Shown: positions 8,650 to 22,005 of the stretch, one piece after another
Numbering within the stretch: position 1 is the first letter of the stretch
Layout of the letters: each line of letters begins with the position of its first letter
Virus record (IMG/VR): IMGVR_UViG_3300023181_000299
Span: 1 to 22,005 of that record
Origin: a virus
DNA: 22,005 nt
Reading direction: 5' to 3' (one strand)
The notes under the pieces: generated by a model
The model's input: the letters and a program-made list of their open reading frames with translations, nothing else
Databases searched by the model: none
What the model was told of the DNA's origin: nothing
Made by a program: the position numbers and the translations under genes

Positions 8650-8675
8650 AAAAAAAGAGCCCGCGCACGGCGGGC
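8650..8675 (-). terminator. Rho-independent terminator upstream of the late genes (tR'2-like)
   Basis: On the minus strand a GCCCGC/GCGGGC stem with a five-base loop is followed by TCTTTTTTT. It lies between a small ORF (8716-8838) and the tail-type gene starting at 8618. It is the second of two terminators facing the late operon. Confidence 0.8.
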
Positions 8676-8715
8676 AAAACGAGTGGCAACTGTAGGCACC
8701 GCTTATAGCTGCGGG

Positions 8716-8838
8716 TCAGACGGGATCACCTCCTTCGCTGTTGGAAACTGGAGTGCAGACGTCTGCACCAAGGGCCACAACTTCGGCCCATGCCCCGTCC
8801 AACAAATCCTTGTCGGCAGGCGTGCGGCGCTCTACCAT
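8716..8838 (-). CDS. Small ORF between two late terminators
   Basis: A 40-codon ORF starting MVERRTPADKDLLDGAWAEV and ending SEGGDPV. Its composition looks coding and it lies between the terminators at 8869-8904 and 8650-8675, so it would be expressed only on read-through or from a local promoter. No clear Shine-Dalgarno precedes the ATG. The 3' part contains a 16-bp palindrome (8753-8768) and a 13-nt match to the complement of the 16S rRNA 3' end (8723-8735). Function is unknown, and it may instead be a non-coding leader. Confidence 0.35.
   Translation of the reverse strand: MVERRTPADKDLLDGAWAEVVALGADVCTPVSNSEGGDPV
8753..8768. repeat. Perfect 16-bp palindrome shared with the ParB-like gene
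   Basis: GTGCAGACGTCTGCAC is a perfect 16-bp palindrome. Its TGCAGACGTCTGCA core is found once more in the window, at 17696-17709 inside the ParB-like gene. Confidence 0.6.
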
Positions 8839-8868
8839 TGCGCTACTGGTAGGCTCTCGCGAGGGACG

Positions 8869-8904
8869 AAAAAAAACCTCGCGAGGCAAATGCCCGGCGA
8901 GGTT
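8869..8904 (-). terminator. Rho-independent terminator after the late promoter (tR'1-like)
   Basis: On the minus strand an 8-bp stem AACCTCGC/GCGAGGTT (arms 8897-8904 and 8875-8882) is followed by eight T residues. It lies about 105 nt after the stop of the 223-aa gene and about 65 nt after the predicted transcription start of the promoter at 8974-9003. Confidence 0.85.
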
Positions 8905-8967
8905 TATTTACTCAACAGCTTCTGATCCGGCATCAAACATTGCCCTAGATACAGTTACTGCGAGAAT
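8869..8967 (-). ncRNA. Candidate short leader RNA (6S-like) between late promoter and terminator
   Basis: A transcript starting about 7 nt after the -10 box (near 8967) and ending at the T run (8869) would be roughly 100 nt long. The only reading frame is a 10-codon ORF without a convincing ribosome binding site. In lambda the equivalent terminated RNA from pR' is the 6S RNA. This is predicted from promoter and terminator alone. Confidence 0.5.
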
Positions 8968-8973
8968 GACGCA

Positions 8974-9003
8974 AATATAGTGCCTGTGTAACACACGTGT
9001 CAA
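8974..9003 (-). promoter_or_regulatory. Near-consensus sigma-70 promoter (pR'-like late promoter)
   Basis: Minus strand: -35 TTGACA (8998-9003), an 18-bp spacer and -10 TATATT (8974-8979). The spacer is rich in dyads, including TGTGTAACACA (8985-8995) and ACACGTGT (8993-9000). It begins just after the stop of the putative late regulator gene, so it does not transcribe that gene. A Q-binding element in lambda lies in the same part of pR'. Confidence 0.7.
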
Positions 9004-9009
9004 CAGCTT

Positions 9010-9681
9010 TTAAAAAATAGGCACAATGCCCTGATCGACGAACTGCCTGTTGAGACGTTGCAAAGCCCGATCCTCCAGCTCGTGTACCCGTCTCTTCAAA
9101 ACTTTGAACGATCGCGCGTAGATCATATGATTGCCGCCGAAAGACTGCGCCAAGCTCCGGAAGCTGATCTCAATCCTGAGGTGGTCCGCGTACAGTTTGC
9201 CAAGCAGACAGTCCAGGGCGAACGGCGGAATCTTTGGAAACGATGGAGAAAGCCAATCCGACAGCCCTTTGATCGCTGCGGTCCGCTCCGACGAAAATGC
9301 GAAGCGGCGGCGCGGCGGCGCGCATTGCGACTGTCCATCATCGAGGTCCTCAAATTCCACCTGGCCGAACTTAGCCTGTAGCGCCCAGCACTCCGGTGCG
9401 GGAAGCACACGGACTGCCCGAATGACCTTTGCACATAGCGCACGCACCTCGCCCATTTCTAAGCCGCCGAAGTTGATCGTGGCTGATGGGCTGCCGCGCA
9501 ACTGGTCCAGCCAATTGCGCTGGTCGCCCGTCGTTAGATTCGCGCCTTCCATCATCCTGATCAGCGCCTTGCGCAATGGCGCGTCTTGCTGCGCCTCTTG
9601 CGCCAGGATCAAGAACGCCACATGTACCGCCTGCCCTGCCGTAGAGAACACCGCCTCGCTTGCTTTTAATTCCACTACCAT
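9010..9681 (-). CDS. Putative late-gene regulator, possible Q-type antiterminator
   Basis: A 223-aa protein I do not recognise by family. The middle (about 75-112) is helical (MGEVRALCAKVIRAVRVLP, then ECWALQAKFG), and the C-terminal third has a probable helix-turn-helix (FRSLAQSFGGNHMIYARSFKVLKR) followed by a helix, reminiscent of sigma-4-like or antitermination proteins. It is the last gene of the pR-like operon, as lambda Q is, and is followed by a strong promoter, a short leader and a terminator ahead of the late genes. The start has an AAGGGG ribosome binding site with 7-nt spacing. The late-regulator role is inferred mainly from context; a conserved phage protein of other function is the alternative. 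Confidence 0.75.
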   Translation of the reverse strand: MVVELKASEAVFSTAGQAVHVAFLILAQEAQQDAPLRKALIRMMEGANLTTGDQRNWLDQLRGSPSATINFGGLEMGEVRALCAKVIRAVRVLPAPECWALQAKFGQVEFEDLDDGQSQCAPPRRRFAFSSERTAAIKGLSDWLSPSFPKIPPFALDCLLGKLYADHLRIEISFRSLAQSFGGNHMIYARSFKVLKRRVHELEDRALQRLNRQFVDQGIVPIF

Positions 9682-16883: not shown

Positions 16884-18830
16884 ATGACCATCGACATCAC
16901 CGCACGGGCACCTGAAATAGATCCCGTCATCAAGACGCTGGAGCACATGGAGAACCAGCCATCGTTCGGCGACATCCCCATCGCCTGCACCCAGCCCTCC
17001 AAGACCAACCCGCGCAAGATCTTCGCCACGGACAAGCTGGACGACCTCGCCGCCAGCATCAAGCAGCTGGGCGTCGCGCAGCCTATCCTGGTGCGCCCCA
17101 TCCGCACCGACGGCGCCGGCGTGACCTGGTTCGAAATCGTCGCCGGCGAACGCCGCTGGCGCGCCTCTAAGCTGGCCGGCAAGACTACCGTGCCCGCGAT
17201 CGTCCGCAAACTGACCGACATCGAAGCGCTTGAGATCCAGGTGATCGAGAACTTGCAGCGCCAGGACCTGCATCCGCTGGAAGAGGCAGAGGGCTACGAG
17301 GTGCTGATGGAAGAGGCTGGCTACAACGGCGAAACCATGGCCGAGAAGGTCGGCAAGAGCAAGGCCTACATCTACGCCAGCTTGAAGCTGTGCGCGCTGA
17401 ACGAGAAGGTGCGCAAGATGTTTTACGACGGCCTGCTGACGAAGTCCACCGCCTTGCTGGTCGCGCGCATTCCGATCCCGGCGATGCAGGAGGCGGCAGC
17501 AAAGGAGATCTCGACCGGCTACCGGGGTGTGATGTCGGCGCGCGACGCGTTCCAGCATATCGAGAACAACTATATGCTGAAGCTCAAGAAGGCCGAGTTC
17601 AAGCCCTCTGATGCCGATCTCGTCCCTGCAGCTGGCGCGTGCACTACCTGCCCGAAGCGCAGTGGCAATCAGCCGGAAATCTACAGCGACGTAAATGCAG
17701 ACGTCTGCACTGACCCTGGCTGCTTCAAATCGAAGACCGCAGCGCACGTCATCAAGATCAAGCAGCTGGCCACCGCCAACGGGCAGACCGTCATCAGCGG
17801 TGCCGAGGCGAAGAAGATCATGCCGCATTCGTATTCGTCTGAGCTCGGAGGCGGCTACGTCAGCCTCGACAGCATCAACTATAACGACAGCAAGCGGCGG
17901 ACATACCGCCAGTTGATCGGCAAGGATGCGGCGCAAACGGTTCTTCTGGAAAGTCCTCATGCCGCCGAGATCAAGGAGATCGTGAAGGTAGCCGATATCA
18001 AGGATCTTCTCAAGGAAAAGGGCGTTGGCATTTCGGCAGGGGCTGGCAAGGCTAATGACAGCCGCGACCGCGAAAAAGAGCAGGAAGCAAAGGCGAAGGT
18101 CGAGCGCGCGTATCGTACAGAGCTGTTCACTGAGATTCATCACGCATCGCTGATGATGAACCTGGTCGACGAGGATCTGCGCCTGCTGGCGCGCATCATG
18201 TACAACAACCTGCCAAGCAACACGATCCCGACCAAGCTGGTCATGTCCCTGCACGGATGGACGGACGACACGTTTGCCTATCCGGACCGCGAGGGCAAGC
18301 TCAGCACCGCCATCAATGCGCTCTCGCCCGCCGAGTTGAACCAGCTGATCCGCGACTGCATGCTGAGCCACGATATGCACGTCAACGTCTACACCAGCTA
18401 CTCCGAGAAGGACGAGCCAAACCGCCTACTGGCGATGGCCGCGCGCACCAAGATCGACGCCAAGTCGATAAAGAAACGCTTCACCGACGAAGCGAAAGCA
18501 AAGGCCGACGCGAAGAAGAAAGCAGCGGCGCAAAAGGCCGCGAAGGTCACTGGCGCCAAGCTGCCCGCCCCTGCAGCTGCCACCAGCACGCCGGCCTTGT
18601 CGGCGCCGGCCAAGGCCACTCCATCGACAAAGCCCAAGGCGCCCGCTAAGCCCGCACCGAAAGTGAAGCCCAAGGCCGCAGCTACAAAAGCAGCAGAGAC
18701 AAAGCCTGCAACCTCGCCCGCAAAGCCAGCGGTCACACCTCCAGCAGCTGAGCCAACGACTGCGACGCCAGCACCAAACGTCCCGGCAGCGGCATGGCCC
18801 TTCCCAACCTCCAGCCAACCAAAATTCTAA
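16884..18830 (+). CDS. ParB/RepB/Spo0J-family protein with long Lys/Ala/Pro tail
   Basis: A 648-aa protein. Residues 30-110 form the ParB N-terminal domain, with the CTP-binding-type motifs GERRWRA (88-94) and ENLQRQDLHPLEEAEGY (122-138). A helix-turn-helix follows (about 150-172), then a central region with a Cys cluster (CTTCPKR ... VCTDPGCF, about 253-281). From about residue 545 the tail is Lys/Ala/Pro repeats, probably disordered. No ParA gene accompanies it, so classical partition is not implied; phage ParB-like proteins of this kind may regulate transcription or protect DNA. A 14-bp palindrome lies within the Cys-cluster codons. There is no strong Shine-Dalgarno; MTIDITARAP is chosen as the longest in-frame start. 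Confidence 0.85.
   Translation: MTIDITARAPEIDPVIKTLEHMENQPSFGDIPIACTQPSKTNPRKIFATDKLDDLAASIKQLGVAQPILVRPIRTDGAGVTWFEIVAGERRWRASKLAGKTTVPAIVRKLTDIEALEIQVIENLQRQDLHPLEEAEGYEVLMEEAGYNGETMAEKVGKSKAYIYASLKLCALNEKVRKMFYDGLLTKSTALLVARIPIPAMQEAAAKEISTGYRGVMSARDAFQHIENNYMLKLKKAEFKPSDADLVPAAGACTTCPKRSGNQPEIYSDVNADVCTDPGCFKSKTAAHVIKIKQLATANGQTVISGAEAKKIMPHSYSSELGGGYVSLDSINYNDSKRRTYRQLIGKDAAQTVLLESPHAAEIKEIVKVADIKDLLKEKGVGISAGAGKANDSRDREKEQEAKAKVERAYRTELFTEIHHASLMMNLVDEDLRLLARIMYNNLPSNTIPTKLVMSLHGWTDDTFAYPDREGKLSTAINALSPAELNQLIRDCMLSHDMHVNVYTSYSEKDEPNRLLAMAARTKIDAKSIKKRFTDEAKAKADAKKKAAAQKAAKVTGAKLPAPAAATSTPALSAPAKATPSTKPKAPAKPAPKVKPKAAATKAAETKPATSPAKPAVTPPAAEPTTATPAPNVPAAAWPFPTSSQPKF
17695..17710. repeat. 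Second copy of the TGCAGACGTCTGCA palindrome
   Basis: Positions 17696-17709 repeat the palindromic core found at 8754-8767. In both places the bases can be read as codons for ADVCT, on plus here and minus there. Confidence 0.55.
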
Positions 18831-21878: not shown

Positions 21879-21900
21879 TGGTGGAGACGGCGGGAATCGA
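21879..21900. other. Probable phage attachment site in the ssrA 3' end
   Basis: The CCA end and T-arm of tmRNA lie at the phage boundary, where tyrosine integrases often cross over. The other att copy is outside the window, so the exact core is not determined. The inference rests on int, xis and cargo lying just inside an intact ssrA 3' end. Confidence 0.5.
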
Positions 21901-22005
21901 ACCCGCGTCCGCAAGCACTCCACAGACAGTTCTACATACTTAGCACTATCATTTAATTTAACCAGTACAACACGGACGTGCACGTTTTGGACTAGCGATT
22001 CACCT
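21879..22005 (-). ncRNA. ssrA: tmRNA, 3' part (runs off the window)
   Basis: The minus strand ends with the tRNA-like GGGTTCGATTCCCG T-arm and CTCCACCA 3' terminus, the signature of tmRNA, preceded by the GCGGACGCGG stem segment and an upstream stretch consistent with pseudoknot-rich betaproteobacterial tmRNA. About 127 nt are visible; the tag-coding part and 5' end lie beyond the right edge. tmRNA rescues stalled ribosomes in trans-translation. Its 3' end is a classic integration target for prophages and islands. Confidence 0.93.

Follow-up and report, generated by a model that had tools for sequence, protein, structure and literature searches.

Does the 223-aa protein encoded at the end of a phage early operon act as a Q-type antiterminator that lets RNA polymerase read into the late genes? 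The window, i.e. the whole stretch of 22,005 nucleotides that was analysed (an IMG/VR virus record), is a temperate phage with an integrase, CI/Cro-like and CII-like regulators, a VapE-like primase, and terminase, portal and capsid genes. An earlier note had described an early minus-strand operon closed by the 223-aa gene and followed by a near-consensus promoter, a leader of about 100 nt with a strong terminator, a second terminator and the late genes. This layout was borne out, and the features considered below, all on the minus strand, are as follows.

9010-9681, minus strand: gene for the 223-aa putative AlpA-family antiterminator (open reading frame, PHROG 17923, AlpA homology, model); helix-turn-helix at residues 174-217
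8974-9003, minus strand: late promoter, -35 TTGACA (9003-8998) and -10 TATATT (8979-8974), kept in relatives
8987-8992, minus strand: candidate binding element GTTACA at -25 to -20 (core TGTTACA), from the register of the AlpA element (ABE) GGGACG and covariation with residues 185 and 186
8963-8968, minus strand: -10-like, predicted sigma-dependent pause element CATTCT at -1 to +5, from conservation of A+1 and T+5 and the position of CACGAT in PalpB
8952-8961, minus strand: GCAGTAACTG block, conserved in relatives
8869-8905, minus strand: terminator 1 (tR'-like), folding into a 9+4 bp stem with a T-run ending at 8869
8650-8675, minus strand: terminator 2, GCCCGCCGTGCGCGGGC and then a T-run, from scan and fold, shared with L002 and L004
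7863-8699, minus strand: first late gene, minor tail protein by its match to PHROG 1924

Upstream of the 223-aa gene (9681-9010) lie the CII-like, VapE-like and 109-aa genes of the same operon. The promoter, with its 18-bp spacer, sits directly after the stop codon of the 223-aa gene, matches the consensus at 11 of 12 positions and was the best sigma-70-like site within the 20 kb scanned. Transcription was assumed throughout to start at 8967, 7 nt past the -10, which fits this promoter. From there, terminator 1 is predicted to give a 99-nt RNA when the protein is absent, and terminator 2, which ends at 8650, a 318-nt RNA. The simple scanner found terminator 2 in the window and missed terminator 1. 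The first late gene may have its true start codon downstream of terminator 2, and the terminase, portal and capsid genes lie 3' of it. On the integrase side, the record ends with the 3' part only of a tmRNA gene (21879-22005), which suggests that the phage integrates into ssrA.

The 223-aa protein was indeed unrecognised, as the earlier note had stated: its sole match was PHROG 17923 (E=2e-55), which is of unknown function, no credible Pfam or NCBIfam match was obtained for any of 27 aligned relatives, and a PDB sequence search with the single protein returned no match. Once the alignment of relatives, and not the single protein, was used, AlpA of Pseudomonas aeruginosa was picked up. This protein is an established Q-like antiterminator (PMC9371919). 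A profile of the family alignment matched AlpA in hmmsearch with E=6.9e-8, including an N-terminal match (MFQSTEQALAVAYWMF versus iFedagqAvhvaflvl), and hhalign against five AlpA sequences gave E=1.3e-8 across 170 columns, compared to a probability of 0.1 against lambda Q. The 223-aa protein shares about 19-25% identity with AlpA and exceeds its 176 residues by about 47. An AlphaFold model built from the alignment (pLDDT 79.8, pTM 0.73) was most confident in the C-terminal half, weak at residues 1-8 and 64-70 and of low confidence in the N-terminal ring region. A comparison of folds with Q proteins had been suggested in the earlier note; when the model was searched against the PDB with Foldseek, the top two matches were structures of AlpA with RNA polymerase, in the loading and in the loaded complex (7xya and 7xyb; probability 1.00, TM-score by target 0.67-0.70, with modest E values of 3e-3 to 6e-3). 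Nothing else in the PDB was credible, and 21Q was absent from the 50 best fold matches. The protein thus shares with AlpA a ring-forming N-terminus, modelled at low confidence, and a C-terminal helix-turn-helix (residues 174-217), the latter as originally noted. The earlier note had assigned it to no known Q family; by homology, its family is that of AlpA and not that of lambda Q. AlpA itself, searched against annotated phages, gave no credible match.

The promoter controlled by AlpA, PalpB, carries the element GGGACG at -25 to -20, in which every base pair matters, and a -10-like CACGAT at -1 to +5, of which A+1 and T+5 are needed (PMC9371919). In the window, GTTACA occupies the register of GGGACG between the -35 and the -10, and CATTCT lies at -1 to +5 with A+1 and T+5 in place. 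This -10-like pause element (8968-8963), absent from the earlier note, is the most telling part of the module. A dyad, TGTGTAACACA, had been pointed out in the promoter spacer as a candidate binding element; it is present (about 8995-8985), but its symmetric flanks are not kept and only the core TGTTnCA is found in relatives, and a two-fold operator was rejected on that ground. Of the dyad, it is GTTACA at -25 to -20 that matters as the candidate element. The symmetry need not matter, because AlpA binds its element as a single molecule (PMC9371919). A full architecture pattern (-35, element register, -10 and -10-like element) occurred once in the window versus 0.003 times per dinucleotide shuffle, a count that is description more than test because the pattern was drawn up after the family had been seen. 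The leader DNA showed no useful similarity to annotated phages. A pause is predicted at +15 (T8953, next base G8952), because YTG is conserved and because the distance resembles the one known for lambda.

The DNA downstream of the stop codons was read in a first set of 36 relatives, and the layout of the module was derived from them before comparison with the published PalpB elements. The common order is TTGAC, TGTTnCA, a TATATT-like -10, CAnnnT, GnAGtAAyTG and a terminator, and the module was present downstream in nearly all testable relatives. Within the transcribed part, the strongest columns were the A and the T of CAnnnT (96% each) and the bases in between were free, the pattern to be expected where sigma region 2 reads a -10-like element. 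Counted from the T preceding the element to the -10-like element, the distance was 25 bp in all first-set modules and in all twelve alp loci examined, where the alpB promoters beside alpA show the same distances as the phage module. Within these 25 bp the promoter -10 shifts by 1 bp, the split being 14/11 in most loci and 13/12 in Burkholderia-type loci, and the distance from the -35 to the element varies from 9 to 11. A fixed 25 bp with a mobile -10 is what a loading geometry predicts, in which the element-bound protein and sigma at the pause element would have to stay in register, whereas the promoter -10, no longer held, would be free to shift.

The module was also intact where DNA of 0.2 to 5.3 kb had been inserted (L013, L018, L019, L022, L024, L027, L028, L029 and the phages of L020 and L023), and in L170 6.4 kb separate the gene from an intact module; its conservation is thus not an effect of gene adjacency. 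Loci with such inserted cargo include some of the Burkholderia type. L026, whose contig ends 1.6 kb downstream, was left outside the module count. In 41 new loci from a later scan, the module was found downstream on the same strand in all 41, 36 by pattern and 5 by reading (L167, L174, L185, L209 and L210), and the 25-bp spacing held in 40 of them, L164 having 24. Since the pattern goes back to the first set, its matches are not blind, although the new loci played no part in making it; many of the 41 are closely related to one another, and the tallies were read from tables. The distant BgManors32 (31% identity) kept the promoter, a CAAATT pause element and the terminator; its element has diverged, and it was the one relative without a recognisable element. 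Seven paralogues in one genome, G263 (L039 and L041-L046), were without a detectable late-promoter module in the DNA examined.

An intrinsic terminator between the promoter and the controlled genes is likewise common to the family. Because of bulges and long loops, half of the terminators escaped a simple stem-loop scan, and folding beside T-runs was used instead. Of 37 modules, 35 have a terminator-like hairpin with a T-run no more than 150 nt from the start, compared to 47 of 370 shuffled leaders (13%). Termination would occur at about +45 to +60 in most relatives and at about +99 in the group of the window. A tRNA-like reading of 8700-8850 was rejected, since ARAGORN and Rfam were without a match there; an evalue-mode Rfam scan returned chance-level miRNA and norovirus matches only.

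We then considered whether the protein and its candidate element vary together. AlpA contacts its element through R128, K138, S139, T140 and H142 (PMC9371919), which align with residues 175, 185, 186, 187 and 189 of the 223-aa protein. R175, the counterpart of R128, is kept in almost all relatives. When all protein columns were scanned in 33 relatives, base -22 was best associated with residue 186 (AlpA S139) and base -23 with residue 185 (AlpA K138). The DNA-contact residues are thus either conserved or co-vary with the element, the covarying pairs in the recognition helix being residue 185 with base -23 and residue 186 with base -22. In the first set, M186 went with A-22, T or P with C-22, and K with C-23. 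The pair L009 and L017, which carry TGGGACAG and TGTTCCAG, are 95% identical over the N-terminal part (128/135), compared to just 15/27 in the helix-turn-helix. A tree from which the helix-turn-helix was left out showed about 6 changes of the base and about 7 of the residue class, with 8 joint changes versus 13 if independent; because the sequences are related, these counts are descriptive and carry no formal probability. Among the new loci, M occurred with A-22 in 31 of 34 (exceptions L164, L166 and L208; L037 is a further exception to this rule), T with C-22 in 3 of 3 and K with C-23 in 3 of 3. R185 occurred with G-23 in 6 of 6, and G-23 in no other new locus; G is likewise found at -23 in AlpA (K138) and in L009 (R). 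This last link was spotted from L009 and AlpA and was not written as an advance prediction.

Taken together, the AlpA homology, the finding that nearly all testable relatives keep the promoter, the pause element and the terminator, and the protein-element covariation strongly support the Q-type role that had been proposed from the single sequence. We thus judge that the 223-aa protein is very probably (about 0.93) an AlpA-family Q-type processive antiterminator controlling the phage late genes via a pR'/tR'-like module. We infer the pausing, binding, loading, nozzle mechanism, read-through and timing as follows. The protein would be made last in the early operon, while host RNA polymerase would start constitutively at the downstream promoter, at about 8967, and pause near +15 because sigma region 2 would bind once more, to the -10-like CATTCT at -1 to +5. 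Without the protein, transcription would stop at terminator 1, giving the 99-nt RNA, or at terminator 2. With it, the C-terminal helix-turn-helix would bind GTTACA at -25 to -20 and the protein would load onto the paused polymerase; the N-terminal part would then constrict the RNA exit channel and thereby keep terminator hairpins from forming, and polymerase would read into the late genes.

A spacer-bound protein with a helix-turn-helix could also simply activate, or repress, the late promoter, next to which the terminators would be incidental. The conserved element between -35 and -10 fits such a role, and AlpA, too, was regarded as an activator at first (PMC7969949). However, the promoter is already near consensus, a terminator lies directly 3' in 35 of 37 modules, and the homologue AlpA turned out to be an antiterminator. 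Moreover, the transcribed -10-like element is conserved and keeps its 25 bp to the binding element even where the -10 has shifted, which would be superfluous for an activator. We therefore regard this explanation as improbable.

Even less probable is that the protein is a lambda Q, 21Q or 82Q family member that annotation missed. Its place in the genome and the logic of its promoter are alike, and AlpA and 21Q have a common fold (PMC9371919), but the absence of a credible Pfam or NCBIfam match in the 27 members, the hhalign probability of 0.1 for lambda Q, and the ranking of AlpA first with 21Q outside the 50 best PDB fold matches speak against it. More specifically, PF06323, PF06530 and PF03589 were without a match among the 27 members, which sets 21Q and 82Q apart at the level of Pfam families, as hhalign does for lambda Q. 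The module could finally be a decoy, with the protein acting in replication or recombination and the promoter serving the late genes by default without antitermination. The prophage copies in G263 without a visible module would fit, but the element bases are tracked by recognition-helix residues across many relatives, and we give this explanation hardly any weight.

As a predicted antiterminator, the 223-aa protein is functionally like lambda Q, 21Q and AlpA, and by descent, as far as the alignments tell, it is AlpA-like. It shares with the AlpA system (PalpB and tB, programmed cell death) a homologous protein, an element at -25 to -20, a -10-like element at -1 to +5 and an intrinsic terminator thereafter. 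In contrast to the alp genes, which form a chromosomal lysis cassette, it is phage-borne and followed by structural genes, and its element is GTTACA instead of GGGACG, matching changes in the recognition helix. The proposed mode of action resembles that of 21Q, with a spacer DNA element, a sigma-dependent pause and an exit-channel nozzle (PMC6606751), but the Pfam-family search found no sequence match to 21Q, which binds a direct repeat as two protomers whereas AlpA binds as one. With lambda Q, pR', 6S and tR' it has in common a short leader RNA to a terminator and a regulator closing the early operon, whereas homology to lambda Q, which has a zinc finger (PMC9371919), was undetectable by hhalign. 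GafZ of the Caulobacter gene transfer agent, likewise a putative antiterminator, also has its element between -35 and -10, but it was reported to resemble neither the known Q proteins nor AlpA in sequence or structure (PMC11150451).

The published Q families are 21Q, lambda Q and 82Q, plus AlpA, which was said to have no sequence homology to other antiterminators; it was also suggested that further Q-like proteins may come to light (PMC7969949, PMC9371919). The open-access literature, to which our search was confined (subscription papers and preprints being outside its scope), yielded no report of phage relatives of AlpA, and the branch is unrecognised in the libraries and open-access literature searched. 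In 120 Burkholderiales genomes, PF06530 gave one match over the cut-off and PF03589 none; PF06323 gave none either, with its positive control silent too. We consider it rather probable that AlpA relatives are a fourth phage Q family, mainly in phages of Burkholderiales and relatives, from which the alp regulator was domesticated, and that the pairs 185/-23 and 186/-22 form an evolvable code while the 25 bp are held. PHROG 17923 thereby gains a predicted function, and phages that almost entirely lack the classical Q families gain a known mechanism by which their late genes may be controlled. Peña et al. inferred a prophage origin of the alp cell-death system from holin-like genes and Q-like action; with a phage family whose regulator is homologous and whose promoter is laid out in the same way, this origin can be tested directly. 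Element and recognition helix also vary naturally, which provides ready-made specificity pairs.

Some further observations were made near the module and in relatives. A 14-bp perfect palindrome, TGCAGACGTCTGCA, occurs in the window between the late terminators (8754-8767) and inside a parB-like gene (17696-17709; gene 16884-18830, ParB_N and HTH_ParB). It recurs in L002, L003, L004, L009, L016, L017, L021, L031, L032, L034-L037 and L089, differs at one base in the parB of L146, and is a candidate parS-like site or operator. Also between the terminators, just ahead of the late genes (about 8690-8755, minus strand), a block GGAGGTGATCCCGTCTGACCCGCAGCTATAAGCGG is conserved in L002, L004, L033, L089 and L119; it may be a cos/pac-type site or an RNA element, and the window terminase is lambda gpA-like. 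Varied cargo, much of it defence-like, is inserted between the antiterminator gene and the late promoter in L018, L019, L022, L024, L027, L028, L059 and L060, for example an OLD/GajA-like nuclease (L019), AAA_13 PDC-S06 (L027) and an AriA/PtuA-like ATPase (L022). The copies of the antiterminator gene in G263 have diverged, and several stand after a RusA-like gene, each then with different cargo; cargo likewise follows the gene in L061-L066 of G263, with a SIR2-like PDC-S25 directly 3' in L061. In L011 and L030-L037, an insertion of about 100 aa at residues ~119-205 is predicted to form two long antiparallel helices, in an overall poor model. Finally, a 191-aa open reading frame adjoining a RusA-like gene (L040, in G017) is a distant relative (E=8e-8) with a CPCC motif, possibly a zinc-bearing variant.
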